A stretch of 24,187 bases of DNA. It comes from a virus. Below the pieces are notes generated by a model. That model saw only the letters and a list, made by a program, of their open reading frames with translations, was not told where the DNA came from and did not search any database. Location: positions 1-24,187 of the IMG/VR virus record IMGVR_UViG_3300042465_002407, one strand, 5' to 3'. Both the position numbers and the translations under genes were made by a program. Of this stretch, positions 6,546 through 23,255 are shown piece by piece (the first letter of the stretch is position 1; each line of letters starts with the position of its first letter).

Positions 6546-6577
6546 AATTTGTTTTTTTATTTGTTGTTATCTGAGTA

Positions 6578-6729: not shown

Positions 6730-6733
6730 GCAA

Positions 6734-6763: not shown

Positions 6764-6785
6764 CCATTATAAATATTTTTATTTG

Positions 6786-6793: not shown

Positions 6794-6797
6794 TTTA

Positions 6798-7287: not shown

Positions 7288-7719
7288 ATGTTAGAACTAC
7301 TTTGTAAAAAAGATGATTTTTGGAGAAGGGTAGCCTTTAATATTTGCAAAGACAAAACACTAGCCGATGATTTAGTACAAGATATGTACATAAAATTATC
7401 GGATTGCACAAAAGAGATAAACGATTTCTATGTAATAATTACAATTAAGAATATATTTCTAAATCATCTTAAAAAAGAAAGTTTAACAATCAATATTGAT
7501 GATTACGATTTCAAAGATATGTTAACTACTTTTGAATTAAACGACAAAGAAATTAATTTCATAGGTAGATTAAAGTGGTACGAAAGAGATGTAATAGAAA
7601 TGACTTACGACAAATCGTTTCACGAAATACAAAGAGATTTAAACGTAAACTATCAATTTGTTAGAAGAATATTAATTAAAGCACAAACTAAATGGCAAGA
7701 AGAAAATCAGAAGGCTTAG
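7288..7719 (+). CDS. Phage-encoded ECF-like sigma-70 family protein
   Basis: A 143-residue protein with the two-domain outline of ECF sigma factors. Region 2-like: ADDLVQDMYIKL (26-37), which matches the 'A(E/D)D(L/I)xQ(E/D)xF(I/L)' core that contacts RNA polymerase and the -10 element. Region 4-like: LKWYERDVIEMTYDKSFHEI (95-114) followed by QRDLNVNYQFVRRILIKAQ (115-133), the -35-binding helix-turn-helix. It is shorter than typical ECF factors (about 170-190 residues). Position just upstream of the terminase genes recalls ArpU- and RinA-type late regulators of other phages. It may direct late transcription, possibly from the TTGTAACAAAAA sites at 9803, 17071 and 20186; this link is inference. 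Confidence 0.7.
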   Translation: MLELLCKKDDFWRRVAFNICKDKTLADDLVQDMYIKLSDCTKEINDFYVIITIKNIFLNHLKKESLTINIDDYDFKDMLTTFELNDKEINFIGRLKWYERDVIEMTYDKSFHEIQRDLNVNYQFVRRILIKAQTKWQEENQKA

Positions 7720-8060
7720 GAGATACTATTGAAAAAGTTACAAAAGCAACTGGAGTTAAAAAGTTAATTGAAATATTTGTAGACGGTCAAGACTGCGGAT
7801 GTGATGAACGCAAACAAAAGTTAAACGTTTTATTCGCTTATAGATTAAAGGCACGATGTTTGACAGAGTTAGAATATAATCAATGGAAAGAGTTTATGGA
7901 AGTTAGAACGATAAGACTTTCAGCAGAACAAGTTAAATATGTATGTGAATTGTATGCTTCTGTTTTTAGTAGACAAGTTTACGTTCCTTGCTCAGGTTGT
8001 AGTCCAGCACCTTTAATTTCAATGATTGATAAGTTAGACAAAGTTTATAACCAATACTAA
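7692..8060 (+). CDS. Cysteine-rich conserved-type phage protein, unknown
   Basis: A 122-residue protein overlapping the sigma-like gene by 28 bp. It begins with 'GLGDTIEKVTKATGVKKLIE', followed by 'DCGCDERKQKLN' (Cys35, Cys37), and has further cysteines at 56, 85, 100 and 103 ('PCSGCSPAP'). The cysteines could bind a metal. Similar short proteins starting 'GLGDTIEK.TKATGIKKL' with a 'CGCD.RK.KLN' box occur next to terminases in Bacteroidota phages, in my recollection, without known function. The overlap with the sigma-like gene suggests coupled synthesis. Confidence 0.7.
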   Translation: MARRKSEGLGDTIEKVTKATGVKKLIEIFVDGQDCGCDERKQKLNVLFAYRLKARCLTELEYNQWKEFMEVRTIRLSAEQVKYVCELYASVFSRQVYVPCSGCSPAPLISMIDKLDKVYNQY

Positions 8061-8343: not shown

Positions 8344-8622
8344 ATGGCAGGAAAAGGAGGAGCAATAGCAGGAAACGGAAGAAAATCAAAGGATGAAGAA
8401 AATAGAATTAGAGATTTAATGAAGCCTCATTCTATTCACGCAATTAATTGTTTAGTTAATATAGTTAAAGATAAAGATGCAAGACCAGCAGATAAAATAA
8501 GTGCTTCTAAATTAATTATAGAGTACACTTATGGCAAACCAAAAGAAACAGTTGAAACAACGCACAATCTTAACAGCTTTGATATAAAAGAACTATTCAA
8601 GTTTGATAATAGTAAAGAATAA
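8344..8622 (+). CDS. Terminase small subunit-like protein
   Basis: A 92-residue protein starting 'AGKGGAIAGNGRKSKDEENR', the Gly/Arg-rich start typical of small terminases. A helical domain follows ('IRDLMKPHSIHAINCLVNIV', 'RPADKISASKLIIEYTYGKP'), including the familiar 'A..I.YTYGKPKE' end of many small terminase families. The small subunit recognises the packaging site and stimulates the large subunit. It overlaps the large terminase start by 20 bp. Assignment is by position and pattern. Confidence 0.8.
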   Translation: MAGKGGAIAGNGRKSKDEENRIRDLMKPHSIHAINCLVNIVKDKDARPADKISASKLIIEYTYGKPKETVETTHNLNSFDIKELFKFDNSKE

Positions 8623-9799
8623 ATATAAAGCATTAGGTAGCGACAGCAGATATTATATTGTATCGGGAGGGAGAGGTAGCGGAAAATCTTATTCCGTTAA
8701 CCTCTTTTTGCTTTTACTTACATACGAAAGCGGACACACTATTTTGTTTACTCGTTATACTTTAACTTCTGCTCACATTTCAATCATTCCTGAGTTTATA
8801 GATAAGATTGAAACAGCACAATTACAGAATGATTTTTATATTACTAAAGATGAAATTATAAATCTAACAACGGGTTCAAAGATTTTATTTAAAGGAATTA
8901 AAACAGGAAGCGGAACACAAACTGCAAACCTTAAATCTTTAGCTGGTGTTACAACTTGGGTGTTGGATGAAGCAGAAGAACTAATTGACGAAGATATATT
9001 TGACAAAATTGATTTATCTATTCGACATCAAACAATTCAAAACCGTATTATCTTAATTCTAAATCCTGCAACAAAAGAACATTTTATTTACAATCGTTTT
9101 TTTGAAAGCAGAGGAGTGCAGGAAGGAAGTAATGCAACAAGTAAAGATACAACGTACATTCACACCACATATTTAGATAATAAAGAAAATCTATCAGAAA
9201 GTTTTATTAATCAAATAGAACGCATTAAAACAAGCAACCCATCAAAATACAAACACGTTATACTAGGAGGTTGGTTAGATAAAGCAGAAGGAGTTGTATT
9301 TACCAACTGGAGCATTGGAACTTTCAATCCTGATAACTTACAAACATCATTTGGTCAAGATTATGGATATAGCATTGACCCAACTACATTAATAGAAGTT
9401 GCTATTGATAAAAAGCAAAAAAAGATTTATGTAAAGGAGCATTATTGCAAAACTAGATTAACTACAAGCGAGATAGCTTCTTTAAATAGCACTCACGCAA
9501 TGCGTAAACTTATAATCGGAGATAATGCAGAAGGAAGATTGATTGATGAATTACGTGCTAAAGGAAACAATATAGTTCGATGCGATAAACCACCAATAGA
9601 GTTTGGTGTTTCATTAATGCAAGACTTTGAAATTATAGTTGATAACGATAGTTTAAATATTGTTAAAGAAATGAATAACTATGTTTATTTAGATAAAGGC
9701 AGTAAATTATATGTGGATAAATTTAATCACTGCATCGATGCAATTCGTTACAATGTAGTTTACCACTTAGGCAGTTCATTCGGTATCACAATCCGATAA
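8603..9799 (+). CDS. terL: Terminase large subunit
   Basis: A 398-residue DNA-packaging motor protein. Walker A is GGRGSGKS (22-29), Walker B VLDEAEE (120-126), and the coupling region follows ('ILILNPAT', 150-157). The nuclease domain has candidate metal-binding acidic residues: Asp253 (GQDYG), Asp307 (GDNAE) and Asp379 (HCIDAIRY), in the order seen for RNase H-like terminase nucleases. The only nearby start is a TTG at 8603; no ATG occurs before Walker A, and the reading starts inside the small terminase gene, which favours coupled translation. The family is PBSX/Terminase_3-like by pattern. Confidence is high for function, lower for the exact start. Confidence 0.93.
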   Translation: MIIVKNKYKALGSDSRYYIVSGGRGSGKSYSVNLFLLLLTYESGHTILFTRYTLTSAHISIIPEFIDKIETAQLQNDFYITKDEIINLTTGSKILFKGIKTGSGTQTANLKSLAGVTTWVLDEAEELIDEDIFDKIDLSIRHQTIQNRIILILNPATKEHFIYNRFFESRGVQEGSNATSKDTTYIHTTYLDNKENLSESFINQIERIKTSNPSKYKHVILGGWLDKAEGVVFTNWSIGTFNPDNLQTSFGQDYGYSIDPTTLIEVAIDKKQKKIYVKEHYCKTRLTTSEIASLNSTHAMRKLIIGDNAEGRLIDELRAKGNNIVRCDKPPIEFGVSLMQDFEIIVDNDSLNIVKEMNNYVYLDKGSKLYVDKFNHCIDAIRYNVVYHLGSSFGITIR

Positions 9800-9802: not shown

Positions 9803-9837
9803 TTGTAACAAAAATAACTTTTTTTTGTTCTTATAAT
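9803..9837 (+). promoter_or_regulatory. Repeated late-promoter-like element (copy 1)
   Basis: TTGTAACAAAAA at 9803-9814, then TTTTGTTCTTATAAT immediately before the ATG at 9838. The 12-mer and the 3' block are the same as in the copy at 20186, and the 12-mer also occurs at 17071. The core TTGT-A-ACAA is palindromic. From TGTAAC, 17 bp lead to GTTC, a layout similar to ECF-sigma promoters. Precedes the tail-gene block. Confidence 0.55.
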
Positions 9838-10449
9838 ATGAAAGTATTATTACCTGAGAGCATAGATGATATTACACTAGAGCAATATCAAAAATACCAA
9901 GAATTACTCAAACGTGAGGACTTGGAACAATACCCATTTAACAAACGTAAGTTAGCAATATTCACAGGTATTAAAATGAATATCGCAAACCAAATATCTA
10001 TTAAGGATATTAACGAAATGATAGCGCAAATTGATTTAGCGTTAGAACAAACCGTAGTATTTAAACAACGTTTCTTTATTGACAAAGTAGAGTTTGGTTT
10101 TATTCCTAACCTTGACAAAATGTGCGGTGCTGAATATTTTGACTTAGGTAAATACTCAACTGAGATTGAAGATTTACATAAAACAATGTCAATACTTTTC
10201 AGACCAATTACAGAAGCTGACGGTTTTGGTAATTACAAAATTAAAGACTATAACGGAACTGAGGAACTTTGCGATGTAATGAAGTTAATGCCTTTGTCAG
10301 TTGTAAATGGCGCATTGGTTTTTTTTTCGAGTTTAGCCAACGAGTTGTTGAACTATATCCAGAGATATACGAAGGAGGAACAAGCGAAGGAAACACAGCA
10401 TCAAATTACTTTCGCAAATGGGGATGGTACGCAACCATTGATGAATTAG
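9838..10449 (+). CDS. Tail assembly chaperone, short form (G-like)
   Basis: A 203-residue protein. The start at 9838 directly follows the repeated element. It opens with 'LPESIDDITLEQYQKYQELL', typical of Bacteroidota phage proteins in this position. The body is helical and acidic and reaches 'VVNGALVFF' before a T-run at 10319-10327. The open frame overlaps a second frame (to 10589) by about 124 bp. That arrangement, together with the position ahead of the tape-measure gene, is the hallmark of G/GT tail assembly chaperones, where the short form is made without frameshifting. It is predicted to bind the tape measure protein during tail assembly. Residues 164-203 follow the slip site and look low in complexity. 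Confidence 0.7.
   Translation: MKVLLPESIDDITLEQYQKYQELLKREDLEQYPFNKRKLAIFTGIKMNIANQISIKDINEMIAQIDLALEQTVVFKQRFFIDKVEFGFIPNLDKMCGAEYFDLGKYSTEIEDLHKTMSILFRPITEADGFGNYKIKDYNGTEELCDVMKLMPLSVVNGALVFFSSLANELLNYIQRYTKEEQAKETQHQITFANGDGTQPLMN
10320..10326 (+). promoter_or_regulatory. Candidate -1 ribosomal frameshift site (T TTT TTT)
   Basis: Nine T run from 10319 to 10327. In the upstream gene's register the codons are GTT TTT TTT TCG, so positions 10320-10326 form the ideal X XXY YYZ heptamer T TTT TTT. A -1 slip moves the ribosome into the frame ending at 10589. A perfect 6-bp hairpin (TATATC-CAGA-GATATA, 10354-10369) lies about 28 nt downstream, farther than the usual spacing. Confidence 0.65.
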
Positions 10450-10589
10450 CAAAAGGAAATATATTAAACTATAAAAAAATAGTTAAGTTAAATGTTCACG
10501 AAATACATTTATTTCTAGCACATAAGATTGACAAAATGAAAATGAAAGCATCGGTTATGAAACAAAGCACTAATTCAATAGAGATATGA
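10326..10589 (+). CDS. Tail assembly chaperone, frameshift extension (T-like)
   Basis: This -1 frame continues the chaperone after the T-run. It contributes 87 residues (FEFSQRVVELYPEIYEGGTS onward), so the long form would be about 250 residues. The part 'SNYFRKWGWYATIDELAKGN' followed by 'VHEIHLFLAHKIDKMKMK' looks like a conserved phage family rather than random reading. It lacks a usable start: the only upstream ATG in this frame (10269) lies inside the chaperone gene and the intervening residues are out-of-frame readings of it. The stop overlaps the next start as ATGA. Expressed by frameshift, in my view; a plain sequencing indel in the T-run is the main alternative. Confidence 0.65.
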   Translation, partial: FEFSQRVVELYPEIYEGGTSEGNTASNYFRKWGWYATIDELAKGNILNYKKIVKLNVHEIHLFLAHKIDKMKMKASVMKQSTNSIEI

Positions 10590-11047
10590 ACCAATACACA
10601 GAGTTACTTTATTACATAAAATCTTTAGCCGAAGCTGATAGTTTAGTAAATACAGTTACTAAAGGCGATTTTGACCTTTTGGATTTAGACAAGATGAATA
10701 TATTTCCTTTAGTTCATATTGCTATTGCTGGTGCAAGTTTTACAAATGGTTCAACTGTAAATTTTAGCGTTCAAGTTGGTTGCTTTGACATTCGAGATAT
10801 TAATAAAGAGATAAGAACAAATAAGTTTTGGGAACAGGATAATGAAGTTGATAATCACAATACAACTTTAGCAATTTTAAATCGTATGTGGTTAAAAATG
10901 TACACTGACTTTGAGCAAAACAATATTACAGCAAGTGAAAGTCCAAGTTTAGATATTTACAGTTTTGTGCGTTCAAATACTTTGGATGGTTGGATATTAT
11001 CATTCGACGTTGAAGTTCCAAACACAACTATTAATTTATGCACGTAA
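10586..11047 (+). CDS. Tail terminator/completion-like virion protein
   Basis: A 153-residue protein. It shows 'VNTVTKGDFDLLDLDKMNIF', then 'PLVHIAIAGASF' and 'VNFSVQVGCFDIRD', and ends with 'WILSFDVEVPNTTINLC'. This pattern (L.KM.IFPL.HI ... F.V.V...DI) recurs in tail-module proteins of Bacteroidota phages that I associate with tail terminator or minor tail roles. No catalytic motifs. Gene order (after chaperone, before an HK97-gp10-like gene) agrees with a head-tail joining or tail-terminating function, but the fold is not certain. Confidence 0.5.
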   Translation: MNQYTELLYYIKSLAEADSLVNTVTKGDFDLLDLDKMNIFPLVHIAIAGASFTNGSTVNFSVQVGCFDIRDINKEIRTNKFWEQDNEVDNHNTTLAILNRMWLKMYTDFEQNNITASESPSLDIYSFVRSNTLDGWILSFDVEVPNTTINLCT

Positions 11048-11051
11048 TAAA

Positions 11052-11579
11052 ATGAGTGTTCAAACTGCATTAAATAGTTTTGGAAAAAACATAGTTCAAC
11101 AATCTAGAAGTAACCTAACTAAAAAAGGCAAAAAAAACACAGGCGATTTATATCAATCTATTAGTTACGAATTAAACGTTTCTAAAAATAGTTTTCAGCT
11201 TTCGTTTAGTATGACTGATTACGGTCAGTTTGTTGATAAAGGAGTTAAAGGAGTTAGTTCAAGTTCTAAAGCACCAAACAGTCCGTTTAAGTTTGGAACA
11301 GGAAGCGGATTTAAAGGAGGTTTAACAAAAGGGATTGATGCTTGGGTTCAAAGAAAAAGAATACAGTTTAGACAAAAAGAAGGTAAAGGAGTTAAAGGTC
11401 AGTTATTAAGTTATAAAGAAACTGCTTTTTTAATTCGTAGAGCAATTTGGAATAAAGGAATTGAAACAACAAACTTTTTTACAACACCATTTGAAAACGA
11501 GTTTAAAAAGTTACCTGAGCAATTAGTCGAAGCATACAATTTAGAATTAGATACATTTTTAAAATACACTTTGAAATGA
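11052..11579 (+). CDS. HK97 gp10-like head-tail/neck protein
   Basis: A 175-residue basic protein from ATG 11052, four bases after the preceding stop. An earlier in-frame ATG at 10965 would overlap the previous gene by 83 bp and lacks a reason to be used. Residues 56-67 (DYGQFVDKGVKG) match the 'YA.FVE.GT' hallmark of HK97-gp10-like proteins. 'FKFGTGSGFKGG' and 'IDAWVQRK' follow. These proteins act at the head-tail connector or tail-completion ring. The stop overlaps the next start (ATGA). Family assignment is by motif and position. Confidence 0.68.
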   Translation: MSVQTALNSFGKNIVQQSRSNLTKKGKKNTGDLYQSISYELNVSKNSFQLSFSMTDYGQFVDKGVKGVSSSSKAPNSPFKFGTGSGFKGGLTKGIDAWVQRKRIQFRQKEGKGVKGQLLSYKETAFLIRRAIWNKGIETTNFFTTPFENEFKKLPEQLVEAYNLELDTFLKYTLK

Positions 11580-12349
11580 TAAAGAACTTATCGCCTTACT
11601 ATTTAACGATACCATTTGTATCTCCAACATCGGGTTTAACTTGCACAGCTTACACTTTGCAGGTTTTTATTTGGGATGGGTTAAAAACTTCCGTTCCAGC
11701 AGAACCTATTTACGAGATTAGAAAACAAAATGCAACTGCTTCAATAGGTAATGACAGAATTAATATTGCAAGGTTAATATCTTCATTTATAAACTTGACA
11801 GCCCAAACAATGACTGTTACAGATTTATACGATGCAAACAATCAACTTTGGGTTCGTAGTCAAGTAAGATATGAAACATCAAACCCAACAGACTTTTTGC
11901 CTAAACTAACTACAACATCATTAACGTTAAAAGGTTATGCTTATGGAATGGAGGGCGAAAATACAACCATACCTGCAAATAATATTTTAATGCAAGGAAC
12001 GGAGTTTAAAGTATCTCGCAACGGGTTTTTTAATATTCCAATATATGTTGGAGAACCAGTTTATCCACCTGTTGAATTTTTAATAACTAACATCGTTGTT
12101 GACGAAGCACCAATGTACACTTTAACATATACTAGAGATGGTTTATATGATGATTTGCAATATCGTTACAGATTGCAACCTTCAACGGATTGGATAGTAG
12201 GAGATGATTTATTTACTTATGATGATTTTCCTGATATTGCAATAACGCTTCCATTAGTAGCAGGAGATTATGATGTTCAAATTTACGCTTACGATGTTAT
12301 TAATAACTTTTTAGCTTACTCTAATATTTACGAATTAACAATAGTATAA
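11576..12349 (+). CDS. Tail/baseplate-associated virion protein, unknown
   Basis: A 257-residue beta-rich protein beginning 'IKNLSPYYLTIPFVSP' and continuing 'CTAYTLQVFIWDGLKTSVPA'. Such an N-terminus is familiar in tail modules of Bacteroidota phages. The C-terminal 90 residues ('FLITNIVVDEAPMYTLTYTR' and 'LPLVAGDYDVQIYAYDVINN') resemble a fibronectin-type III or Ig-like beta-sandwich. Such domains decorate phage tails and may bind cell-surface glycans. No enzyme motif. Coupled to the next gene by a TAATG overlap. Confidence 0.6.
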   Translation: MIKNLSPYYLTIPFVSPTSGLTCTAYTLQVFIWDGLKTSVPAEPIYEIRKQNATASIGNDRINIARLISSFINLTAQTMTVTDLYDANNQLWVRSQVRYETSNPTDFLPKLTTTSLTLKGYAYGMEGENTTIPANNILMQGTEFKVSRNGFFNIPIYVGEPVYPPVEFLITNIVVDEAPMYTLTYTRDGLYDDLQYRYRLQPSTDWIVGDDLFTYDDFPDIAITLPLVAGDYDVQIYAYDVINNFLAYSNIYELTIV

Positions 12350-12927
12350 TGGCAATAACAGTAATATCATATCCTAGCAACGAAATAGATTATACTTTAA
12401 CCGAAGTTGGCACACTTGATAGCGGTGCAATAATTCAAAACATTTGGGTTGATGTTTCAGAAGCTATTACGGATGAGTATATCGAAGTAACTTTTAATGA
12501 TGAAGTAATTACATTGTTAATTACAGATGAATGTAGATACACTCCTATTGATGTTTGCTTTTTTAATAAGGAAGGCGAAATGCAAATCTTACCATTCTTT
12601 AAAGCAAAGACAGAAAATTTAACTGTTACAAATGAAAGTTACGAAAGCGATAACGGACAACCTTTAGCAGGAAACCACCAATTTGTTAGATACAATGTTC
12701 AAGGCAAATCTGCATTTAAAATCAATAGCGGTTTTGTTTCTGAGGATTTAAACGAAACTTTTAAGCAGCTGTTTTTATCCACTAGAGTTTGGATGTTTGC
12801 CGATGGAATTTACACACCAATTAATTTAGGTTCTAAATCTTTAGAATATAAAACAAGGCAAAAAGACAGATTGATTAATTACGAATGCGAATTTGAATAC
12901 GCTTTTAATGAAATTAACAATATCTAA
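12349..12927 (+). CDS. Tail-module virion protein, unknown
   Basis: A 192-residue acidic protein. It has repeated strand-like segments ('AITVISYPSNEIDYTLTEVG', 'DEYIEVTFNDEVITLLITDE', 'YTPIDVCFFNKEGEMQILPF') and ends with 'KTRQKDRLINYECEFEYAFN'. No known domain is recognised. It lies between two large tail proteins with one-base TAATG overlaps, suggesting balanced co-expression and a structural role in the distal tail. No signal peptide. Confidence 0.6.
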   Translation: MAITVISYPSNEIDYTLTEVGTLDSGAIIQNIWVDVSEAITDEYIEVTFNDEVITLLITDECRYTPIDVCFFNKEGEMQILPFFKAKTENLTVTNESYESDNGQPLAGNHQFVRYNVQGKSAFKINSGFVSEDLNETFKQLFLSTRVWMFADGIYTPINLGSKSLEYKTRQKDRLINYECEFEYAFNEINNI

Positions 12928-14930
12928 TGATAGTTAAAATATACATCGGTGCTGATAAACTAGATTTGTTTAAAGACGAGAATATTTCTTTAACAAGTTC
13001 GGTTGCTTCCATAAATGATATTTCTAAAAACACAACTGATTTTACACAATCGTTTACCGTTCCTGCTTCCGATATAAACAACAATATTTTTAAGCATTAT
13101 TACAATGCTACTTTAGAGAATGGTTTTGATGCAAGAACACCAGTAGCAGGAACTATTGAGATTGATGGTTTACCTTTTAAGAATGGAAAATTTACTTTAA
13201 CTAAAGTAGCCTTAAAGTCAGGAAGTCCAACATCTTACACAATTAATTTTACAGGTAATTTAGTAAGCATAAAAGACAAAGTTAGAGATGATACTTTGGC
13301 TCAGTTGGATTTGACAGCTTACGACCATACTTATAGTTCAGCTAATGTTGAAACAGGTTTAACGAATGAATTATTTAGTGGAGATTTAAAGTATGCTATG
13401 TTTGGTAAAAAGCAATACTTTTATAAAGACGATGCAACTAATAATGATAATACAGAAACTCTAGCTAACATTGCTTGGGGTGGCGGTGCTGATGTTGGAG
13501 TTTTATGGTCTGATTTAAAACCTTGTTTAAAAATTGCAAGAATTGTAGAAGCTATTGCTGCAAAATACGACTTTACTTTTTCAAATGATTTCTTTGGAGA
13601 TGCTTCCTTTGAAGATTTATATATGTGGTTAAATAATAGTAATGAAGTAGTATCATTTGAAAAGAGAATAAATTTTACAACGGGTACAAATCCTTATTTT
13701 GATTTTACAACTGATGAAGCTACTTATCCTGCTATTTTTACTGTTAGCGGAATATTACACAAAGCAACAATAATACCAAATGCAGGATTTACAACAGCAC
13801 CTTACACAATTAATATTTATGTTAATAATGAAAAAGTAAGTTCAAAAACATTTTTAGGAGGCACTCAGACAATTTCTGTAAGGTCGGAAAACAATAAACC
13901 AGCAGTAGTATTTTTTACTGTAACTACTTCACAACCTTTTGAGTTTGATGCTGAATATTATGTTTTAATACAAAGACCGTCAGTACCTATTTTGTTTTAT
14001 GAAGTTTACGCAACAAACGATGTAATTACTTCGACGTTTTTTGTAAATCAAAATATGCCTAACATAAAAGTAATTGACTTCTTAAAAGGCTTATTTTCGA
14101 TGTTTAAGTTGGTAGTTATAGCAAACGAATATAACGATATTTATGTAAACACTTTTGTTAGTTTCTATGCCGATGGTGGTTTTTATGATGTAACGAAATA
14201 TGTAAACTTTGATAGCACCACAGTTGAAAGAGGAAATTTACTAAACGAAATATCTTTTAAGTTCCAACCTCCTACTACTTTATTAAATAGTCAATTCCTA
14301 TTAAATACAGGCGAGGCTTATGGCGATGAAGTTGCAATATTAGAAGATGCCGAAGGAAACAAGATTGAAGGAAGTAGCTTTACTTTAGAATTACCTTTTG
14401 AACAATTTGTTTACGAAAGATTGATTGATTTAAACGATGATGTTCTTACCAATATCCAATACGCTGGTATATTTAATGAGCAAATTGAAGCGGTAGTTCC
14501 TGCTCCTCATATTTGTTATTTGATAGCTGTTAATATGACAGACAAGCCAATGGCTTTTATTGATGATACAAACACAAAAACGCAAATTAGTTCTGCAATA
14601 AATATTCCGTCGCATACAATGACACTTGAAGATGTGGAATTTTCTACTGTGTTTGGTTCTGAATTTAGCGAATGGAATGGCGAAATAATAACAAATAGCC
14701 TTTATAACCTTTATTACGATGATTATATTAATGCTATTTTTAATATAAAGCGTAGAAGTTTTACTTTTACAGCATTTTTACCAGTCGATATAATGACAAA
14801 GTTAAAATTAAACGATGTTCTTAAAATCAAAGAAGATTATTATAGAATTGATAACTTTAATTTAAACCTATTAACAGGCGAAGTAAAGTTAAATTTAATT
14901 AACTCTTTTGACAACACAATAACAATATGA
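12927..14930 (+). CDS. Large tail protein, baseplate/hub-like candidate
   Basis: A 667-residue protein. The N-terminus has 'TDFTQSFTVPASDINNNIFK' and 'TPVAGTIEIDGLPFKNGKFT', a pattern I associate with large tail proteins of Bacteroidota phages ('DFS.SFT.PA...N...F'). The rest is beta-rich, and the end reads 'DVLKIKEDYYRIDNFNLNLLTGEVKLNL', with fewer than 20 residues per recognisable block. By size and position (largest tail gene before the tape measure) it could form the baseplate hub or tail-tip. No hydrolase motif is visible, so peptidoglycan cleavage is not implied. Confidence 0.6.
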   Translation: MIVKIYIGADKLDLFKDENISLTSSVASINDISKNTTDFTQSFTVPASDINNNIFKHYYNATLENGFDARTPVAGTIEIDGLPFKNGKFTLTKVALKSGSPTSYTINFTGNLVSIKDKVRDDTLAQLDLTAYDHTYSSANVETGLTNELFSGDLKYAMFGKKQYFYKDDATNNDNTETLANIAWGGGADVGVLWSDLKPCLKIARIVEAIAAKYDFTFSNDFFGDASFEDLYMWLNNSNEVVSFEKRINFTTGTNPYFDFTTDEATYPAIFTVSGILHKATIIPNAGFTTAPYTINIYVNNEKVSSKTFLGGTQTISVRSENNKPAVVFFTVTTSQPFEFDAEYYVLIQRPSVPILFYEVYATNDVITSTFFVNQNMPNIKVIDFLKGLFSMFKLVVIANEYNDIYVNTFVSFYADGGFYDVTKYVNFDSTTVERGNLLNEISFKFQPPTTLLNSQFLLNTGEAYGDEVAILEDAEGNKIEGSSFTLELPFEQFVYERLIDLNDDVLTNIQYAGIFNEQIEAVVPAPHICYLIAVNMTDKPMAFIDDTNTKTQISSAINIPSHTMTLEDVEFSTVFGSEFSEWNGEIITNSLYNLYYDDYINAIFNIKRRSFTFTAFLPVDIMTKLKLNDVLKIKEDYYRIDNFNLNLLTGEVKLNLINSFDNTITI

Positions 14931-15076
14931 TACAGATAATTGAATTATTGCAAACTTTAGATTATTACGGTGGTGGCGAATGCATCGAGATAGCAAAAGG
15001 GAAGCACGAAAAGATAACAAAGTTTTGGCAATTTAAAATTAAAATAAAGAGATTATGGCTTAACAAAAAGAAATAA
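14927..15076 (+). CDS. Small basic protein before tape measure
   Basis: A 49-residue frame from ATG 14927, overlapping the preceding stop as ATGA, to TAA at 15074-15076. N-terminal half: MIQIIELLQTLDYYGGGECI. The C-terminal half is strongly basic (KFWQFKIKIKRLWLNKKK). The ATGA coupling supports translation. It is followed by 89 bp of non-coding A-rich sequence before the tape measure gene. No function recognised. Confidence 0.55.
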   Translation: MIQIIELLQTLDYYGGGECIEIAKGKHEKITKFWQFKIKIKRLWLNKKK

Positions 15077-15165
15077 AAACACCCAACAGCAATAAGAAAT
15101 TGTTTAATAGGAAAATCAAAAACAAGTGGGAATTATAAATGGGAATATTATAAATAATAATAAAA

Positions 15166-17058
15166 ATGATTGAGAAGCAAATAAATATTGTTGTTAGTAC
15201 AAAGGGAAGCGAAAAAGCCGAAGCAAACATTGCTAAACTTACTACGAGAGTTGAAACTTTAAGTTCAGCAAATGCTGTTACAAAGAAAACTTTTGACTCA
15301 TCTAGGGATGCAATATTAGAGTCAACTGGCGCAACTGATGCTTTAGATAAAGCTACAAATGGATTGGGAAGTACTGTCTTAAGAGCTGCATTAAATAGTT
15401 CCCTTTTATCTAAGGAGGGAAAAATAATGTCTGTTGTTAATAAGGGGCTTGCATATACGCAAGGTCTTTGGAACGCTGCAATGGCTGCTAACCCTATTGG
15501 ATTGTTAGTTGCTGCAATCGCTGCTGTAATTGCAGCAGGTTATTTATTGATTAAGTTTTTTATGGATAGCGCAGCTGCTAATGAAGCTGCAATGGCTGCT
15601 ACAAAAAAGCACACTAAAGAATTAGAAAACCAAACAGCAAAAGCGACACAAAGTTCGGAAGCGTTAAAAGTTAAAAACAATCAATTACTAGCATTAGCAA
15701 AAGCAAGTGGAGCAAGTGCTGAGGAAATTAGAAGATTGACTTTGCAATACGCTAATGAAGAAGTTGCTGTTAATCGTGCTAATGCAGTTATAGCATCAAA
15801 CACTTTTATTCGTGAAAGAAATACATTAGCAGTTTTAAAAGCAAAAGGAGTTTCAGAGGAAGCAATCGCAGCACAGGAAAAATTAACCAACGCATCTTAT
15901 AAAGATTTACAAAACGCAAATAAAATTTTGCAAGGTAGTTATGATAAAAGGAGAGATATAATAAATAGCGCAGAAGTTGAAATTTTACAATCTAAAACTG
16001 ATAATACTAAAAAAGCAAATGAACAAGCTGCTTTAGATTTAATTGAACAAGAAAAAATTGCAGCAGAAAAAATAAAAACAGCATTTGAGGCAGAAAAGAC
16101 TTTTGTAGAAAATCAATTAAAACTTTCAAAAGGTTCTATTGATGAAAAAAGAAAAATTGTTTTAGAAGATAATAAATTATCTAAAGAGGACAGAAATAAA
16201 TTTTTATTAGACTTACAACAACAGGAAATAGATTTAGAGGAAGCTCATAATAAAGCAATAGTAGATTTAAACAAAAGATACGATGATGAAAAGGCAAATC
16301 GTTTAGCTGATACAGCTGTTAAAAAAGAGGAATTAGATTATGCAAATCAAGTTTTAGAAATTGAAAGAATTGCAGAAACTGAATTAGAAAAACAAACTTT
16401 AATTGAAAAATTAAACGAGGAACATTTAATTAGAATGGGTGTTGCTAAAAAAACTGATGCAGATAAAAAGGAGGCAGAGGATAAAGCAGCAGCTGATAAA
16501 GAAATAGAAATAGCTAAAAGGGTTTTAGAGCAGAAAAAATCATTACAAGATGCTCAAATAAATTTAGCTTCTAGCGCAGTTGGGTTACTTGGAGCAATAG
16601 CGGGTAAAAATAAAGCACTACAAAAAGCTTCTATTGTTGCTGAAAATGCAATAGGAATAGGAAAAATGTTTATTACTACCGCTGCATCAAATGTAAAAGC
16701 TACTGCTGAAGGAGCTGCTTTATCTTTTTCAACAGGTGGTGCTTCATTAGGTATAGCAGCTGCATTAGTTGCTAGTAATAATGTTTCGTTAGGTCTTAAT
16801 GTAGCATCATCATTAGTTGCAACACAAAAAGCATTAGCTGCTTTAGGTGGTGGAGGTGGAGGCGCAGGTGGAGGAAATAACTCTGGTGCTAAAGGCGCAC
16901 CAGCACCCTCTTTTAATTTAGTTCAAGGAACAGGAAGTAATCAAATTGCAGAAGGCTTGGCAACAGAACGTAGACCAGTACAAGCATACGTTGTAGCATC
17001 GCAAGTATCAACAGCGCAAAGTTTAGACAGAAACATTATAGATAGGGCAACTTTGTAA
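15166..17058 (+). CDS. Tape measure protein
   Basis: A 630-residue protein with typical tape-measure architecture: helical N-terminal region, a hydrophobic segment at about 109-132 (NPIGLLVAAIAAVIAAGYLL), long charged coiled-coil (about 135-450, rich in Ala, Lys, Glu), a small-residue hydrophobic region (470-560), then a poly-Gly linker near 565-573 and a C-terminal 'PVQAYVVASQVSTAQSLDRN' tail seen in Bacteroidota phage tape measures. It sets tail length and may help DNA cross the envelope. The modest length implies a short siphovirus-type tail. Start preceded by AATAATAATAAAA. The frame ends 49 bp before the protease gene, and the second repeated element lies between them. Confidence 0.85.
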   Translation: MIEKQINIVVSTKGSEKAEANIAKLTTRVETLSSANAVTKKTFDSSRDAILESTGATDALDKATNGLGSTVLRAALNSSLLSKEGKIMSVVNKGLAYTQGLWNAAMAANPIGLLVAAIAAVIAAGYLLIKFFMDSAAANEAAMAATKKHTKELENQTAKATQSSEALKVKNNQLLALAKASGASAEEIRRLTLQYANEEVAVNRANAVIASNTFIRERNTLAVLKAKGVSEEAIAAQEKLTNASYKDLQNANKILQGSYDKRRDIINSAEVEILQSKTDNTKKANEQAALDLIEQEKIAAEKIKTAFEAEKTFVENQLKLSKGSIDEKRKIVLEDNKLSKEDRNKFLLDLQQQEIDLEEAHNKAIVDLNKRYDDEKANRLADTAVKKEELDYANQVLEIERIAETELEKQTLIEKLNEEHLIRMGVAKKTDADKKEAEDKAAADKEIEIAKRVLEQKKSLQDAQINLASSAVGLLGAIAGKNKALQKASIVAENAIGIGKMFITTAASNVKATAEGAALSFSTGGASLGIAAALVASNNVSLGLNVASSLVATQKALAALGGGGGGAGGGNNSGAKGAPAPSFNLVQGTGSNQIAEGLATERRPVQAYVVASQVSTAQSLDRNIIDRATL

Positions 17059-17070
17059 ATTTCTGCTAAA

Positions 17071-17106
17071 TTGTAACAAAAACAACTTTATTTAATTATA
17101 TAATAT
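17071..17106 (+). promoter_or_regulatory. Repeated late-promoter-like element (copy 2)
   Basis: TTGTAACAAAAA at 17071-17082, identical to copies at 9803 and 20186, followed by ATTATATAATAT to the ATG at 17107. The 3' block differs (no GTTC; ATTA at that position), but the A/T-rich TATAAT-like end is retained. Precedes the head-gene block. Confidence 0.5.
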
Positions 17107-18222
17107 ATGAAAACATATTTAGCTAAATACAATAGACAAAAAAACAAAGGAGTTTTCGGAATTTCTTTAGTTGAAAACCCAGCAATGGAAGGTTTGTTTG
17201 TTGCGCTTTCAGAAGATGAAAAGAAAATTCAATTTGCTACGGTAAACGAGGAAAAAAGAATTTTAGCAGGTTTGGTTTTAGAACCTAATAAACCAATTTA
17301 CAGAAATCAAAACGGAGAGGAATTTAATATCGTTTTTGATGAGCAAACAGTTGAGGATTTATGTTACGGTTTTTCTCAAAATAAAAACAATTCAAACTCA
17401 ACTATTGAACACGATACAAACCAAATTATTGATGGTGTAACTTTCACAGAAAATTGGTTAGTTCGTGACGAGAAAATTGATACTTCGGTAGCATTGGGTT
17501 TGAAGTGTAAAAAAGGAAGTTGGGTTGCAGTTATGAAAGTTGATAGCGACGAGATTTGGAATGACTATGTTAAGACAGGAAAAGTTCAAGGCTTTTCAAT
17601 CGATGCTATGCTTTCACTAGAAGAAGTGAATTTAAAAACAAATATAACAATGAGTAAAGAACAAGAAAAAAGTTTTATGGAACTTTTGAAAGATTTGCCA
17701 AACGCTATTAAACTTGCGTTAAATCCTAAAGAAGTTGAGTTAAAATTAGGCAGTGTAAAACTTGCCGATGGTAGCCTAACTTTAGAGTTTGATGGCGAAA
17801 TGATTATGGTTGACCAAAGTGTTTGGATAACAGCAGAAGATGGAACTCGTGTTCCTGTTCCAGTTGGAGAACACCTTTTGGAAGATGGTACAACTTTAAT
17901 AGTTGAAGTTGAAGGAATAGCAAAAGAGGTTAAAATGGTTGAAGAAGAAGAAGTTGTTGACGAAAATGCACCAATGGATATGACAGACGGTAAAGTTTCA
18001 AACGATGCTAAAATAGCAAGTGAAATTGAAAGTGCAATCAAATCTATTTTGATTAAATACTCTGAGCAACAAGCTACAATTTTTGAATTGAAATCTCAAG
18101 TTGAAGAATTAGGAAAAGCACCTGCTTCAAATGGAATTAAACAACCTTTGAACAACACGACAGTTGACTTATCTAAAATGACAAAAGGCGAAAGAATTTT
18201 ATATAACATTAAAAATAACTAA
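17107..18222 (+). CDS. XkdF-like prohead protease with scaffold-like C-terminus
   Basis: A 371-residue protein. The N-terminal 170 residues match the XkdF/Peptidase S78-type phage serine protease pattern: 'GISLVENPAMEG' near the start, a His in STIEHD (His102), 'WLVRDEKID', 'GSWVAVMKVDSDEIWNDYVK' and GFSIDAM (Ser164). His and Ser are candidate catalytic residues. The remaining part is acidic, with a Glu-rich stretch (near 275-285, 'MVEEEEVVDENAP') and a C-terminal helix (IKSILIKYSEQQATIFELKS) like a coiled-coil scaffold. It ends in a 'TKGERILYNI' segment. Fused protease-scaffold proteins are known in phages; here the fusion is inferred. It directly precedes the decoration-like and capsid genes. 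Confidence 0.78.
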   Translation: MKTYLAKYNRQKNKGVFGISLVENPAMEGLFVALSEDEKKIQFATVNEEKRILAGLVLEPNKPIYRNQNGEEFNIVFDEQTVEDLCYGFSQNKNNSNSTIEHDTNQIIDGVTFTENWLVRDEKIDTSVALGLKCKKGSWVAVMKVDSDEIWNDYVKTGKVQGFSIDAMLSLEEVNLKTNITMSKEQEKSFMELLKDLPNAIKLALNPKEVELKLGSVKLADGSLTLEFDGEMIMVDQSVWITAEDGTRVPVPVGEHLLEDGTTLIVEVEGIAKEVKMVEEEEVVDENAPMDMTDGKVSNDAKIASEIESAIKSILIKYSEQQATIFELKSQVEELGKAPASNGIKQPLNNTTVDLSKMTKGERILYNIKNN

Positions 18223-18224
18223 AA

Positions 18225-18641
18225 ATGAGTACAAGAGGAACAACTTTAAGCGGTGCTGAATTTCAATTATTAAGAACAGAAACATTAGCAGCAGCAAAAA
18301 CATTAGGTAGCGGAGATAGTGCAAAAGTATTTACACTTTCAGCAGCAGCAGGAAAAGTAATAACATTACCATCGGTAGCAGTTGAAGGATTTAACGCAAA
18401 ATTTGTAGTAGGAGCAGCTTTCGCAACTACTAATTTCACAATCGTATCTCCAACAGCAGTCATTCAAGGTGGCGCACACGTTAACAGCGTTTTTGTACAA
18501 GCAGCTAATGAAAATACAATTTCATTTGTAGCATCAGCAGAAACAGTAGGAGATTATATCAACATCGTTTCTGACGGAACAAATTACTATGTTGATGGTT
18601 TTGGAGCAGCAACAGGTTCAATCACATTTACAGCAGTTTAA
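18225..18641 (+). CDS. Decoration-like head protein
   Basis: A 138-residue beta-rich protein with few charges. It starts 'STRGTTLSGAEFQLLRTETL' and has 'VFTLSAAAGKVITLPSVAVE', 'FNAKFVVGAAFATTNFTIVS' and 'GDYINIVSDGTNYYVDGFGA', a repeating strand-loop pattern. Located between protease and capsid, a position often held by capsid decoration or stabilisation proteins. The stop of the protease lies two bases upstream. A fibre-like fold is also possible. Function is inferred from position. Confidence 0.6.
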   Translation: MSTRGTTLSGAEFQLLRTETLAAAKTLGSGDSAKVFTLSAAAGKVITLPSVAVEGFNAKFVVGAAFATTNFTIVSPTAVIQGGAHVNSVFVQAANENTISFVASAETVGDYINIVSDGTNYYVDGFGAATGSITFTAV

Positions 18642-18665
18642 TAATAATAATAACAATATAACAAA

Positions 18666-19574
18666 ATGGCAACAGTAACAAACGTTAGCTCGAATTATGC
18701 AGGGAAAGAGGCAGGAGCAATTATAGGTAAGACTTTCAAAGAAGCAGATACACTAAGGTTAGGATTGGTTACAATCGCACCAAATGTAGGTTATCAATTA
18801 AATATGCGTAGAATACGTTACACAGACGGAACAACTGCTTATACTTGTGGTTTTACACCTGAGGGAGCAATTACGCTTAACGAAAGAACTTTAGCACCTG
18901 TTAAACTTAAAAATGATTTACAAGTTTGTAAAGAAGATTTCAGAGCAACTTGGTCACAAGAAACAATGGGAGCAAGTGCTTCAAATCCAAATGCACCTGC
19001 TGATATTATGGAAGCAATCCAAGTAGAAGTTCTAGGACAAACTGCTGAGGATGTTGATAGCATCATTTGGAATGGAGATAGCACAAATACTAATGAGTGG
19101 GATGGTTTCTTAAAATTGTTTTTAGCAGATGCAGCGGTTATCGATGTTGATGTTGATACTGTAACAGAAGCTAACGTAGTAACTGAATTGAAAAAAGCAT
19201 TAGCAGCTATTCCAATACCTTTAAGAAGAAAAACTCTTAACGTAATGGTTTCTCCTGATGTATTCCAATTTTACAGTTTCTCTTTAACTACTCCAGCAAT
19301 CACAAACGGTTTAGGAGCAGAAGAAAGACAAATGCGTTTTGGTAGATACCTTTTAACTGAAGTTAATGGTTTACCTGCAAGTACTATCGTTATTGCAGAA
19401 GCTAAAAACTTAGTTTTCGGAACAGGTTTAGAAGCAGACTTTAACCAAATCGCAATGGTTGACGAAGATGAAATCGGATTGTTAACAGGTCAAATCCGTA
19501 TGAAAATGGTTTACTCTGGTGGAGTTCAATACTACAACTCAGAGGAGATTGTTTGGGCAAGACCAATAGCATAG
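18666..19574 (+). CDS. Major capsid protein
   Basis: A 302-residue protein. N-terminus MATVTNVSSNYAGKEAGAII, then 'TLRLGLVTIAPNVGYQLNMR', 'LKNDLQVCKEDFRATWSQET' and a C-terminal 'GVQYYNSEEIVWARPIA'. The size, position after the protease and decoration-like genes and the alternating helical and strand segments agree with an HK97-fold capsid protein of Bacteroidota phages. The Ala-, Asp-, Glu- and Val-rich composition is typical. It is followed by a terminator hairpin (19584-19605), as expected for a highly expressed gene. The poly-AAT leader (AATAATAATAACAATATAAC) precedes the start. Confidence 0.8.
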   Translation: MATVTNVSSNYAGKEAGAIIGKTFKEADTLRLGLVTIAPNVGYQLNMRRIRYTDGTTAYTCGFTPEGAITLNERTLAPVKLKNDLQVCKEDFRATWSQETMGASASNPNAPADIMEAIQVEVLGQTAEDVDSIIWNGDSTNTNEWDGFLKLFLADAAVIDVDVDTVTEANVVTELKKALAAIPIPLRRKTLNVMVSPDVFQFYSFSLTTPAITNGLGAEERQMRFGRYLLTEVNGLPASTIVIAEAKNLVFGTGLEADFNQIAMVDEDEIGLLTGQIRMKMVYSGGVQYYNSEEIVWARPIA

Positions 19575-19583
19575 TTAATAACT

Positions 19584-19605
19584 AGGGGAGTTTGGATACT
19601 CCCCT
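19584..19605 (+). terminator. Terminator-like hairpin after capsid gene
   Basis: AGGGGAGT (19584-19591) pairs with ACTCCCCT (19598-19605), an 8-bp perfect stem with a 6-nt loop, followed by TTATTT. The downstream U-tract is interrupted, so termination may be partial and serve to raise capsid mRNA over downstream genes. Confidence 0.6.
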
Positions 19606-19624
19606 TATTTAAAATAATAATAAT

Positions 19625-20134
19625 ATGGCTTGTGATATTACAGCAGGAAGATTAAAACAATGTAAGCAGTCTTTAGGTGGATTGGGTACATTGTATTTAT
19701 TCAATTTCCTAGAAAATCCTTTTACGGTTGCAGCGGGTGTAGCAACAGCTATAAACCCACTTTTACTAACTGTTTACCAATACGAAATTGAAGGCGACGG
19801 AAATAAAGTTGATGAAAACTTAGTTCCTGACAGAAATAGTGGTACTTCGGTTAATACTCAAACTATGACAATAGTATTGAAAAAAATTGATGCTGCAACT
19901 TCTTTACAAATGAACCTTTTAGCTTATGGTTTCCCAATGGCTGTTATAAAAGACAGAAACGGAGTTTACCACGCTTTAGGAATTGATGATGGTATTGATT
20001 TTTCAGTAGCACAATCAACAGGTGGCGCAAAAACTGAAATGAACGGTTACACTTTAACTGGAGTTGCAACTACGGGTGCTTTATCTCCTAAGTTGGATGC
20101 AGGAACGATAGCAGACTTTTTGCTTTTAGTTTAA
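19625..20134 (+). CDS. Virion protein paralogous to 22686-23255 (tail-tube-like candidate)
   Basis: A 169-residue protein: 'MACDITAGRLKQCKQSLGGL' then 'GTLYLFNF', later 'TQTMTIVLKKID', 'VIKDRNGVYHALGIDDGIDF' and 'MNGYTLTGVATTG'. The plan (Met-Cys start, CK.S.GG(L/I) box, DRNG.Y..G...G, then D/MNG) recurs in the gene at 22686. This family is widespread near head-tail genes of Bacteroidota phages. Its strand-rich pattern and expression next to the capsid suggest an abundant virion component such as tail tube, but I cannot confirm that. It is bounded by terminators on both sides, so its transcript level may be set separately. Confidence 0.6.
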   Translation: MACDITAGRLKQCKQSLGGLGTLYLFNFLENPFTVAAGVATAINPLLLTVYQYEIEGDGNKVDENLVPDRNSGTSVNTQTMTIVLKKIDAATSLQMNLLAYGFPMAVIKDRNGVYHALGIDDGIDFSVAQSTGGAKTEMNGYTLTGVATTGALSPKLDAGTIADFLLLV

Positions 20135-20153
20135 TATTTTTTGTGTTTAGTTT

Positions 20154-20187
20154 AAAAAGACTTTGTTAATTCAAAGTCTTTTTTTTT
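20154..20187 (+). terminator. Strong intrinsic terminator
   Basis: AAAAAGACTTTG (20154-20165) pairs with CAAAGTCTTTTT (20172-20183), a 12-bp perfect stem with a 6-nt loop, continuing into a T-run to 20187. It ends the 19625 gene's transcript. The T-run merges with the repeated promoter-like element that starts at 20186, so termination and re-initiation are back to back. Confidence 0.85.
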
Positions 20188-20220
20188 GTAACAAAAACTG
20201 CAAAATTTTGTTCTTATAAT
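20186..20220 (+). promoter_or_regulatory. Repeated late-promoter-like element (copy 3)
   Basis: TTGTAACAAAAA at 20186-20197 and TTTTGTTCTTATAAT ending at 20220, directly before ATG 20221. Identical in both blocks to the copy at 9803. TGTAAC and GTTC are 17 bp apart in both copies. Its place right after a strong terminator is good evidence that it restarts transcription. Confidence 0.6.
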
Positions 20221-20523
20221 ATGAACGTAGTAAATCCAAATGACACAGCACACAATATTTTTATAATACCTAGAAATTATAATATTGAAACACCTGTTTT
20301 AAATTTTTACAATGAAGCTACAAAATTATCAGAAGATATTGATTTTGGGTATAGCATTACCGACGGTATAATGACTATTGGTTTTGATTTTACATTTTTA
20401 GAAAACGACAGATTTACGATAAAAATTTCAGAAACAAATGAAATATATTACAGAGGTAAATTATTTGCTACTTCACAACAACCACAAGAATATAAATTGA
20501 CTAATAATGTATATTACTACTAA
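20221..20523 (+). CDS. Small beta-rich virion-module protein
   Basis: A 100-residue protein. 'TVLN'-type strands are followed by 'IMTIGFDFTFLENDRFTIKI', then 'NEIYYRGKLFATSQQPQEYK'. The 'YRGKLFAT.Q..QEYKLT.N' ending recurs in small proteins of Bacteroidota phages located before portal genes, in my recollection. Predicted to be strand-rich and possibly virion-associated. Stop overlaps the portal start as TAATG, so it is coupled with the portal. Function unknown. Confidence 0.6.
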   Translation: MNVVNPNDTAHNIFIIPRNYNIETPVLNFYNEATKLSEDIDFGYSITDGIMTIGFDFTFLENDRFTIKISETNEIYYRGKLFATSQQPQEYKLTNNVYYY

Positions 20524-22148
20524 TGGCAAACGATATTAGATTAATACAGCTTAATAATTACATAAGACCAAAGGTTGAAGAAACACAATCTAAAGAATGG
20601 GTTTTAAATGGTAAAAATAATGGGTTTTACAGATACTTAATTGACAGATATAATGGTAGCGTTACCAACTCTGCTATTATTAATTCCTATGTAGATATGA
20701 TTTACGGTCAAGGTATCGGAGTTAAAAACGCCTTTACTAGCACTAATGATTATATTAGATTTAAAACAATTCTAAAAGATGAAGATTTGAAACGTATTGT
20801 TTCAGACTTTGTAATATTTAATGAGTTTTCAGCGCAAGTAATAAGAAATAAAAAAGGCGATGATTTAGCTACTATTAAACATTTACCTAAAGAAAGAGTT
20901 GCGCCACATAAAGAGAATGAAGAAGAAGAAATTGACACTTACTTTTATTCTCGAGATTGGAGCAATACAACTAAGTTTAAACCTATTCCTTTTGCAAGTT
21001 TTGGAACTTCTAAAGATGATATTGAAATTTATAATGGTGCGCCTTACAAAGCAGGTAAAACATATTTTTCAGACCCTGATTATTTAAGTGGTTTGCCTTA
21101 TTGTGAAATGGAGGAGGAAATATCTAACTATTATATTTCGCACATTAAAAACGGTTTGTCTTTTGGTTACATAATTAATATTCCTGATGGAAATTCTTTG
21201 TCAGAAGATGAAAAAGACGATTTAGAACGTAAGATAAAACAAAAGTTAACAGGAAGTTCAAACGCTGGTAAATTCGTGCTATCATTCAACGGTAGAGATG
21301 CAGAAATTACAGTAACACCTTTAACAGTTAATGATGCTCATAAACAATGGGAATATTTAACAAGCGAAAGCAGACAACAGATAATGACTTCTCATCGTGT
21401 TGTATCTCCTATTCTTTTTGGTATTAAAGATAACACAGGTTTTGGAAATAATGCAGATGAATTAGATACAGCTAGAGAGCAGTTAATTAAATTCGTTATT
21501 GCACCAAAACAACAATTTATTTTAAACGGTATTGAAGAAATATTGCGCTTTTACGGAATTAATTTACAGTTGTTTTTTAAACCGTTAAAAGAAGTAACAT
21601 TAACGCTTTCAGAAGAAAAAAAAAAGACTGATTTAGATTTATTCCTCGAAATGGGAATGGATGCAGAGATTGATGGTTACGAATTAGAAAGTGTTGCACC
21701 AGTTGATTATGACGAAGAAGAAGCATTAACGCTTTCAACAAGTACTGGAACTGCAACACCATTAAATAAATCAATTTACGATACAGATTTTTATTTAACA
21801 CGTTATCGTTATGCAGGAAATCCAAATCCCGAAAGAGAATTTTGTCGTAGGATGATTTCAGCAGCTAAAATATACAGAAGGGAAGATATTGAAGCAATGG
21901 GCGATAAAGTTGTAAACGCAGGTTTTGGAATGCATCCTTTTCCAAACAACCCTTATTCTATTTGGAAATATAAGGGCGGAGGTTTGTTAAGTTCGACTTT
22001 TACAGCAGGAACTTGTAAACATTATTGGGAAAAATTAAAATATAGAGTTAAAGACGTTAAGATTGACCCAAGAAACCCTATTGCAATAGATGATGCAACA
22101 AAGGACAGAGCAAACGGAATAGCAGGAATAGCACCACATTCAATTTAA
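20523..22148 (+). CDS. Portal protein with MuF-like C-terminal extension
   Basis: A 541-residue portal. N-terminal part has 'YLIDRYNGSVTNSAIINSYV' and 'MIYGQGIGVKN', the usual 'GS.TN.AII..Y...IYG.G' portal pattern, and a central 'SESRQQIMTSHRVVSPILFG' region. The last 125 residues or so (from 'DTDFYLTRYRYAGNPNPERE', through FCRRMISAAKIYRREDI to CKHYWEKLKYRV) resemble the head-morphogenesis domain of Mu gpF: 'FC..M' plus a Cys-Lys-His-Tyr-Trp motif that could bind metal or form a structural site. The fusion of portal and MuF-like domain is known in some phage groups. It forms the DNA-entry vertex. The MuF-like assignment is by pattern only. Confidence 0.78.
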   Translation: MANDIRLIQLNNYIRPKVEETQSKEWVLNGKNNGFYRYLIDRYNGSVTNSAIINSYVDMIYGQGIGVKNAFTSTNDYIRFKTILKDEDLKRIVSDFVIFNEFSAQVIRNKKGDDLATIKHLPKERVAPHKENEEEEIDTYFYSRDWSNTTKFKPIPFASFGTSKDDIEIYNGAPYKAGKTYFSDPDYLSGLPYCEMEEEISNYYISHIKNGLSFGYIINIPDGNSLSEDEKDDLERKIKQKLTGSSNAGKFVLSFNGRDAEITVTPLTVNDAHKQWEYLTSESRQQIMTSHRVVSPILFGIKDNTGFGNNADELDTAREQLIKFVIAPKQQFILNGIEEILRFYGINLQLFFKPLKEVTLTLSEEKKKTDLDLFLEMGMDAEIDGYELESVAPVDYDEEEALTLSTSTGTATPLNKSIYDTDFYLTRYRYAGNPNPEREFCRRMISAAKIYRREDIEAMGDKVVNAGFGMHPFPNNPYSIWKYKGGGLLSSTFTAGTCKHYWEKLKYRVKDVKIDPRNPIAIDDATKDRANGIAGIAPHSI

Positions 22149-22152: not shown

Positions 22153-22689
22153 ATGGAATTTTTATTTATAACACCCGAAGAAATAGCATCAACTACCATA
22201 ATGGGTGGTAATGTTGATGTAGATAAGTATCTTTTTTGTATTGCAAACACGCAATTAACAGTTATTGAACCTTTATTGGGAAGTGAATTGTATAATAAGA
22301 TTTACGAAGCTGCAGAAGCTGATACTTTAACAGGTTTGTACTTGACTTTATACGATAACTATGTAAAACCAATAACAAAGTATAAATCTACTGCTGAATA
22401 CATTGAAATCGGGCAATATATGGTCAATAATGGTGGTATTTATAAGCATACTGGCGAAAATATCGAAGTAGTTTCTAGAGAAGAAGTACTTTCTTTATCA
22501 AATAAGTACAATGCGCTTTCTCAAATGTACATTTTACGCTTTAACAAATGGATTTGTAACAATAATTTAGTTGAATATAAAACAATTCAAGACGAAGTTA
22601 ATGCAAATAGAAACGTAAAAGTAACAGCAGGTTGGAAATTGAACGATGCAAGTTGTGGTTATTACTGTAATAACGATTTTTTACTATGA
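22153..22689 (+). CDS. Head-tail adaptor, DUF6712-like
   Basis: A 178-residue helical protein starting 'FLFITPEEIASTTIMGGNVD'. It contains 'KYLFCIANTQLTVIEPLLGS' followed by 'ELYNKIYEAA', and ends with helices around 'WICNNN' and 'VTAGWKLND'. This order (I..T.IGGNVD ... IEP.LG..LY) is typical of DUF6712 head-tail connector proteins of Bacteroidota phages that sit right after the portal. It probably forms the adaptor ring below the portal. The stop overlaps the next start (ATGA). Confidence 0.75.
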   Translation: MEFLFITPEEIASTTIMGGNVDVDKYLFCIANTQLTVIEPLLGSELYNKIYEAAEADTLTGLYLTLYDNYVKPITKYKSTAEYIEIGQYMVNNGGIYKHTGENIEVVSREEVLSLSNKYNALSQMYILRFNKWICNNNLVEYKTIQDEVNANRNVKVTAGWKLNDASCGYYCNNDFLL

Positions 22690-23255
22690 GTTGTATCTCT
22701 GTAAATAGTAATTATTTAAGAAAATGCAAAGATAGTCAAGGTGGTTTGTCTAATATTTGGTTATTTCCATACGTGAAATATTCAAGAAGTCAGATTATAA
22801 CAACGAATAATGTATTAGATACGTTTCCTGCAACAACTATTTATCCATTTTATTCTGTAGCAAGTCCAAGCGCAACTGATACAATGGAAACAGAAGCAGG
22901 AGGTAAGTATCACGACCAAAAAATAACACTTACGTTGCAAGGTTCTGAGGGTGGTTTTGAATTAACAAAATTACAAACTAAAGACTATCGTGTTATATTT
23001 TTAGACAGAAACGGTAAGTATAGAATATTTGGTTTATACAATGGTTTAGAAGCAGGTTCTTTAGCTTATGCAACAGGAAGTTCTCATTCAGATTTAAACG
23101 GTTTTAAAATAGATTTTTCGGGAAAAGAAGAAAACGAAGCGTATTTTATAACAAATTTAGCGGATGCAGGATTTACAGAAGAAGTTTCATTTAGAATTAC
23201 ACAAGACGGTTTATTTAGAATAACAGAAGATAATCAATTTAGAATTATACAATAA
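22686..23255 (+). CDS. Paralogue of the 19625 virion protein, with C-terminal FRITxD repeats
   Basis: A 189-residue protein: 'MSCISVNSNYLRKCKDSQGG' then 'LSNIWLFPYV', later 'HDQKITLTLQG', 'VIFLDRNGKYRIFGLYNGLE' and 'DLNGFKIDFSGKEENEAYFI'. The same order of motifs as the 19625 gene shows that the two are paralogues, diverged but recognisable. The final 21 residues form three tandem units of 8 residues: FRITQDGL, FRITEDNQ and FRIIQ (169-189). Two copies of this family in one late cluster could be tube and adaptor, or two tail components. Function is inferred only from context. TAATG links it to the fibre gene. Confidence 0.6.
   Translation: MSCISVNSNYLRKCKDSQGGLSNIWLFPYVKYSRSQIITTNNVLDTFPATTIYPFYSVASPSATDTMETEAGGKYHDQKITLTLQGSEGGFELTKLQTKDYRVIFLDRNGKYRIFGLYNGLEAGSLAYATGSSHSDLNGFKIDFSGKEENEAYFITNLADAGFTEEVSFRITQDGLFRITEDNQFRIIQ

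Follow-up and report, generated by a model that had tools for sequence, protein, structure and literature searches.

Why should a phage genome carry the same 12 nucleotides directly before the genes that open its tail, head and portal blocks? To answer this question we analysed a 24,187-nt stretch of DNA (hereafter, the window), an IMG/VR virus record for which megablast found no near relative among phage records, and which probably derives from a phage of Bacteroidota, as inferred from its relatives. The original prediction took the repeat for a candidate phage-specific late promoter resembling those of ECF sigmas, with an activator-binding palindrome as the alternative reading.

A repeated 12-mer and a candidate two-part late promoter

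The 12-mer TTGTAACAAAAA occurs in the window exactly three times (9803, 17071 and 20186, all on the + strand), whereas 0.07 copies are expected and 0 of 100 shuffles reach three. The distances to ATG are 35, 36 and 35 bp (ATG at 9838, 17107 and 20221), and the only copy with one mismatch away from these sites (22554) lies inside an ORF. Copies 1 and 3 share a further block, TTTTGTTCTTATAATATGAA. The proposed TGTAAC-N17-GTTC layout holds for copies 1 and 3, while copy 2 has ATT in place of GTT and lies 1 nt further from ATG. As predicted, the downstream genes do start structural blocks: gpA follows the large terminase (TerL) and precedes tail genes, the head protease is followed by a probable capsid protein, and gpC by portal. 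The features considered here are as follows:

7288..7719 (+), ECF-like sigma factor (143 aa, region 2 and region 4), candidate reader of the promoters
8603..9799 (+), terminase large subunit, between the sigma gene and promoter 1
9803..9837 (+), candidate late promoter 1, before gpA: -35 TTGTAAC 9803-9809, N17, GTT 9827-9829, ATG 9838
9838..10449 (+), gpA (PHROG_32199, unknown function), first gene of the tail block
17071..17106 (+), candidate late promoter 2, before the head protease: -35 TTGTAAC 17071-17077, N17, ATT 17095-17097 (GTT in most relatives), ATG 17107
17107..18222 (+), head maturation protease, first gene of the head block
20154..20187 (+), predicted intrinsic terminator (12-pair stem 20154-20183 plus T-run) abutting promoter 3; in many relatives it encloses the -35
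20186..20220 (+), candidate late promoter 3, before gpC-portal: -35 TTGTAAC 20186-20192, N17, GTT 20210-20212, ATG 20221
20221..20523 (+), gpC, small gene directly before portal (20523-22148)

Two genes on either side of promoter 3 (19625-20134 and 22686-23255) belong to the same family (PHROG_19091), a duplicated structural gene of unknown function.

To examine whether the element is conserved, we collected 160 related phage contigs by portal and by TerL, and the regions upstream of the homologous genes were compared. An unsupervised two-block motif search on 52-64 distinct sequences per gene gave, for gpA, protease and gpC separately, GTAACAAAA-like and [C/A]GTT(A)TA-like blocks, with 17 nt from the C of AAC to GTT and with GTT starting 11 nt before ATG in all three. 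Regions upstream of portal, capsid, TerS and the genes starting at 7692 (g7692) and 19625 (g19625) gave other things. In 1.7 Mb of these loci the GTAACAAA-to-GTT spacing is 17 nt in 58 cases on the coding strand and in none on the opposite strand; other spacings from 16 to 28 have at most 4, and of the smaller peaks at 8 and 12 the 8-nt one fits the GTT of terminator stems in sequences that we read. Only about a third of protease upstream regions (20 of 63) fit the strict pattern, and in others a different ORF ends right at the start codon. In one sigma clade (gpA upstream regions of loci L111, L115, L120, L122, L128, L116 and L140) we found TATACAAAAA with TGTT lying about 19 nt before ATG instead of about 12, indicative of a lineage with a longer predicted leader.

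We then scanned the whole of IMG/VR with the pattern GTAACAAAA-N13-GTTATA-N5-ATG. This hits 25 stretches, and with the spacer two bases shorter or two longer it hits 1 and 0, respectively. All 25 are on contigs of this phage family and nearly all sites are at starts of gpA, protease or gpC, while the single control hit carries no gene of the family. In one 6.3-kb contig (L163) the same gpA promoter and gene start appear at both ends (18-53 and 6266-6301) in opposite orientation, which may be an assembly inversion. A weight matrix built from the relatives ranks exactly the three sites of the window first (23.2, 20.7 and 20.6), although it includes a few near-identical relatives and is thus not fully independent. 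The next hit (15.3) is on the other strand overlapping site 1, and random sequence gives about 0.1 hit per window at 15 or more.

A candidate sigma factor and its co-variation with the promoters

The likely reader of the promoter, which the original prediction did not mention, is the 143-aa product of ORF 7288-7719. Its family is found in 69 of 80 TerL loci, always upstream of TerL; ten of the eleven misses have under 1.45 kb of upstream sequence and the other (L096) has extra genes in that space. A scan of 17 records found it in 12, the five misses being contigs of 4.5 to 30 kb. A scan of genome contigs for the sigma gave only three weak, remote hits, so no host or prophage was identified. 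Sigma70_r2 is matched in 28 of 51 members, yet the window protein scores just under the Pfam cut-off (23.8 vs. 24). The sigma70-ECF model (TIGR02937) is matched in 49 of 51 members at E <= 0.01, with the window protein below that model's own cut-off. Region 4 models are found in some members (Sigma70_r4_2 in 7, Sigma70_r4 in 4), and a profile match to SigW in the PDB, where other ECF sigmas were also matched, spans both domains. The AlphaFold2 model (pLDDT 80, pTM 0.42) has two helical domains, with C-terminal helices at 86-142. Its best Foldseek hits are ECF sigmas, although TM-scores to whole ECF sigmas are low (about 0.4), probably because the two domains are placed differently. Overlapping the end of the sigma gene is a conserved 122-aa gene (7692-8057; PHROG_32048, unknown function) with cysteine pairs (DCGC, CSGC) and homologs in 72 of the 160 loci, which could be a partner or regulator of the sigma. 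The divergent intergenic region 6546-6801 holds TTG-N19-TATATTTG on the - strand and TACATTTG on the + strand before the operon that carries the sigma gene. These are possible host-type early promoters, though TTG-TAnnTTTG matches in the window (6 pairings) do not exceed chance (7.6 expected).

To evaluate whether sigma and promoter vary together, we compared protease and gpC promoters of the same genome. Variants agree more within than across genomes (14.07 vs. 12.66 of 17 positions; none of 5000 permutations as high; n = 14), with TGTTAC at both in L031, TGTCAC at both in L054 and TGCAAC at both in L074. Across 51 loci, gpA-promoter distance correlates with sigma distance (0.68), and still does given TerL (partial r 0.43), g7692 (0.44), TerS (0.58, 43 loci) or gpA (0.32), whereas given sigma those controls explain almost nothing (-0.05 to 0.08). 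As TerL lies between the sigma gene and the promoter, linkage alone would not give this. The -35 follows sigma domain 4 (0.30) more than domain 2 (0.09), while the -10 does not discriminate. Partial Mantel tests on related sequences can be optimistic, therefore we treat these results as strong support and not as proof. The assignment of the GTAAC and [C/A]GTT elements to this sigma is by co-variation only.

Predicted transcript starts and the terminator before gpC

Phage sigma promoters of this sort have start sites 6-9 bp from the promoter element (PMC8948821). Here CGTT occupies -12 to -9 from ATG, so transcripts should begin at about -3 to +1, and the original prediction of nearly leaderless mRNAs fits this geometry. 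In Flavobacterium psychrophilum 5.5% of mapped mRNAs are leaderless (PMC9723704), and in F. johnsoniae 87% of predicted leaders exceed 10 nt (PMC6847099).

The terminator noted before copy 3 is real as a predicted structure, and its T-run runs into the TTG of the promoter. In the relatives the two are often nested: at gpC, 24 of 53 distinct upstream regions (about 45%) have an intrinsic terminator hairpin whose loop contains the -35 (in one of these, L047, the -10 is CTT) and whose T-run is the promoter spacer. Three have it upstream, and gpA and protease have none by the same test (0 of 65 and 0 of 64). The stem is kept by paired changes, as 8 of 12 pairs change on both sides, 80% of cells pair, none of 500 shuffles reach the covariation score, and the register beats shifted versions. 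The 19 rows used were chosen because they fold, so the percentage paired is inflated, and it is the compensatory changes that matter. RNAalifold gave no consensus fold on that alignment, we think because the stem centre shifts by about half a base between lineages and the alignment does not follow it; single sequences fold well. It is about as likely as not that in this family the end of one late operon and the start of the next are often a single element of roughly 45 bp, which stops host or upstream polymerase and restarts only polymerase carrying the phage sigma, with the new mRNA starting at the AUG, in hosts where leaderless mRNAs are rare.

Alternative readings and comparison with known systems

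Although transcription and binding remain unmeasured, the comparative evidence strongly supports a phage-specific late promoter of the ECF type, and the original prediction survived its own test of conservation in related phages. We consider it highly likely that the three copies are the -35 halves of such promoters, read by host core RNA polymerase carrying the phage's own ECF-like sigma factor. The sigma would be made in early or mid infection and then switch on the virion gene blocks at gpA, the head protease and gpC-portal, with a terminator stopping upstream transcription at gpC where the new promoter begins. That this sigma binds and initiates there, the start sites, the timing and the function of the terminator are inferred.

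Other readings appear unlikely. Flavobacteria have several ECF sigmas, and one F. psychrophilum promoter class has a CGT box at -10 (PMC9723704), so the promoters could be read by a host ECF sigma while the phage protein does something else. This remains possible, yet the phage sigma gene is nearly universal in the family and the promoter follows that protein's divergence rather than other phage genes. Less likely still is an operator for a phage activator that recruits host polymerase. TTGT-A-ACAA is a perfect dyad in the window, and copy 3 extends to TTTTTGT-A-ACAAAAA, but the dyad is kept in only 26% of 111 sites in relatives, with the left half TTGT in 27% and the right half ACAA in 98%, and in gpC relatives the extended dyad is explained by the terminator stem. 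In agreement with the original prediction, which saw no clean host box at the three sites, none of 179 homologous upstream regions has a TAnnTTTG box within 45 nt of ATG. This counts against the activator and against a Bacteroidota primary sigma promoter. Equally doubtful is an RNA-level leader or translation enhancer. The element always sits just before ATG, and A at -3 and -6, which helps initiation in F. johnsoniae (PMC6847099), is common. However, this reading does not explain two blocks at a fixed 17-nt spacing with no conserved hairpin at gpA and protease, a terminator stands in the way at gpC, only a few genes have the element, and it co-varies with the sigma.

The findings provide a candidate late-transcription switch, sigma plus promoter, for a large family of mostly uncultured phages whose sigma family's best PHROGs match is still listed as unknown function. 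They let operons be read from sequence alone, offer a set of naturally co-varying sigma-promoter pairs for studying specificity, and predict systematic leaderless translation and a terminator-promoter fusion. Cultured relatives are the Nonlabens phages P12024S and P12024L (Inhavirus), with the sigma gene upstream of TerL, annotated only as containing Sigma-70 region 2. In P12024S this gene is gp33, four genes before TerL, and there are seven sites AAAACA...CGTTA(AT) 10-12 nt before gp01, 05, 08, 35, 41, 44 and 45, almost all at one spacing. This -35/-10 variant is its own, the spacing is mostly 18 nt, so that a 17-nt pattern failed on this phage, and there is no site before the gene just after TerL (gp38). 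In P12024L (16207-18674) a 2OGFeDO-domain oxygenase, a beta-glucosyl-HMC-alpha-glucosyltransferase and a methyltransferase, not annotated in P12024S, are annotated side by side, a possible DNA hypermodification cassette.

Phage-encoded sigmas with bipartite late promoters are already known. New here, as far as we could find among the titles and abstracts of open-licence papers, are the family in probable Bacteroidota phages, the fixed near-leaderless layout and the terminator nested in the promoter. The ECF-type promoters of F. psychrophilum SM6 also have a CGT-type -10 read by an ECF sigma in Flavobacteriia, yet they serve host stress and secretion genes and leaders are usually present (PMC9723704). 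The phiEco32 gp36 sigma directs middle and late genes, but from a single-element promoter (tAATGTAtA) and without region 4 similarity (PMC8948821), whereas here both elements and region 4 are present. The closest precedent is the late sigma SaPh711_gp47 of Salmonella phage 7-11, with promoters GTAAtg-(16)-aCTA (PMC8948821). The present system works like it, although membership in its family was not shown, since a tblastn search of phage records, which would miss such distance, found only Nonlabens and weak Rhizobium phage hits. Both have a phage-encoded sigma factor with a region 4 and bipartite promoters with a GTAA-type -35 and a short constant spacer before late genes, while the -10 (CGTT/AGTT here), the 17-nt spacing, the promoter fixed against the ATG, the nested terminator at one site and the phage family are different.
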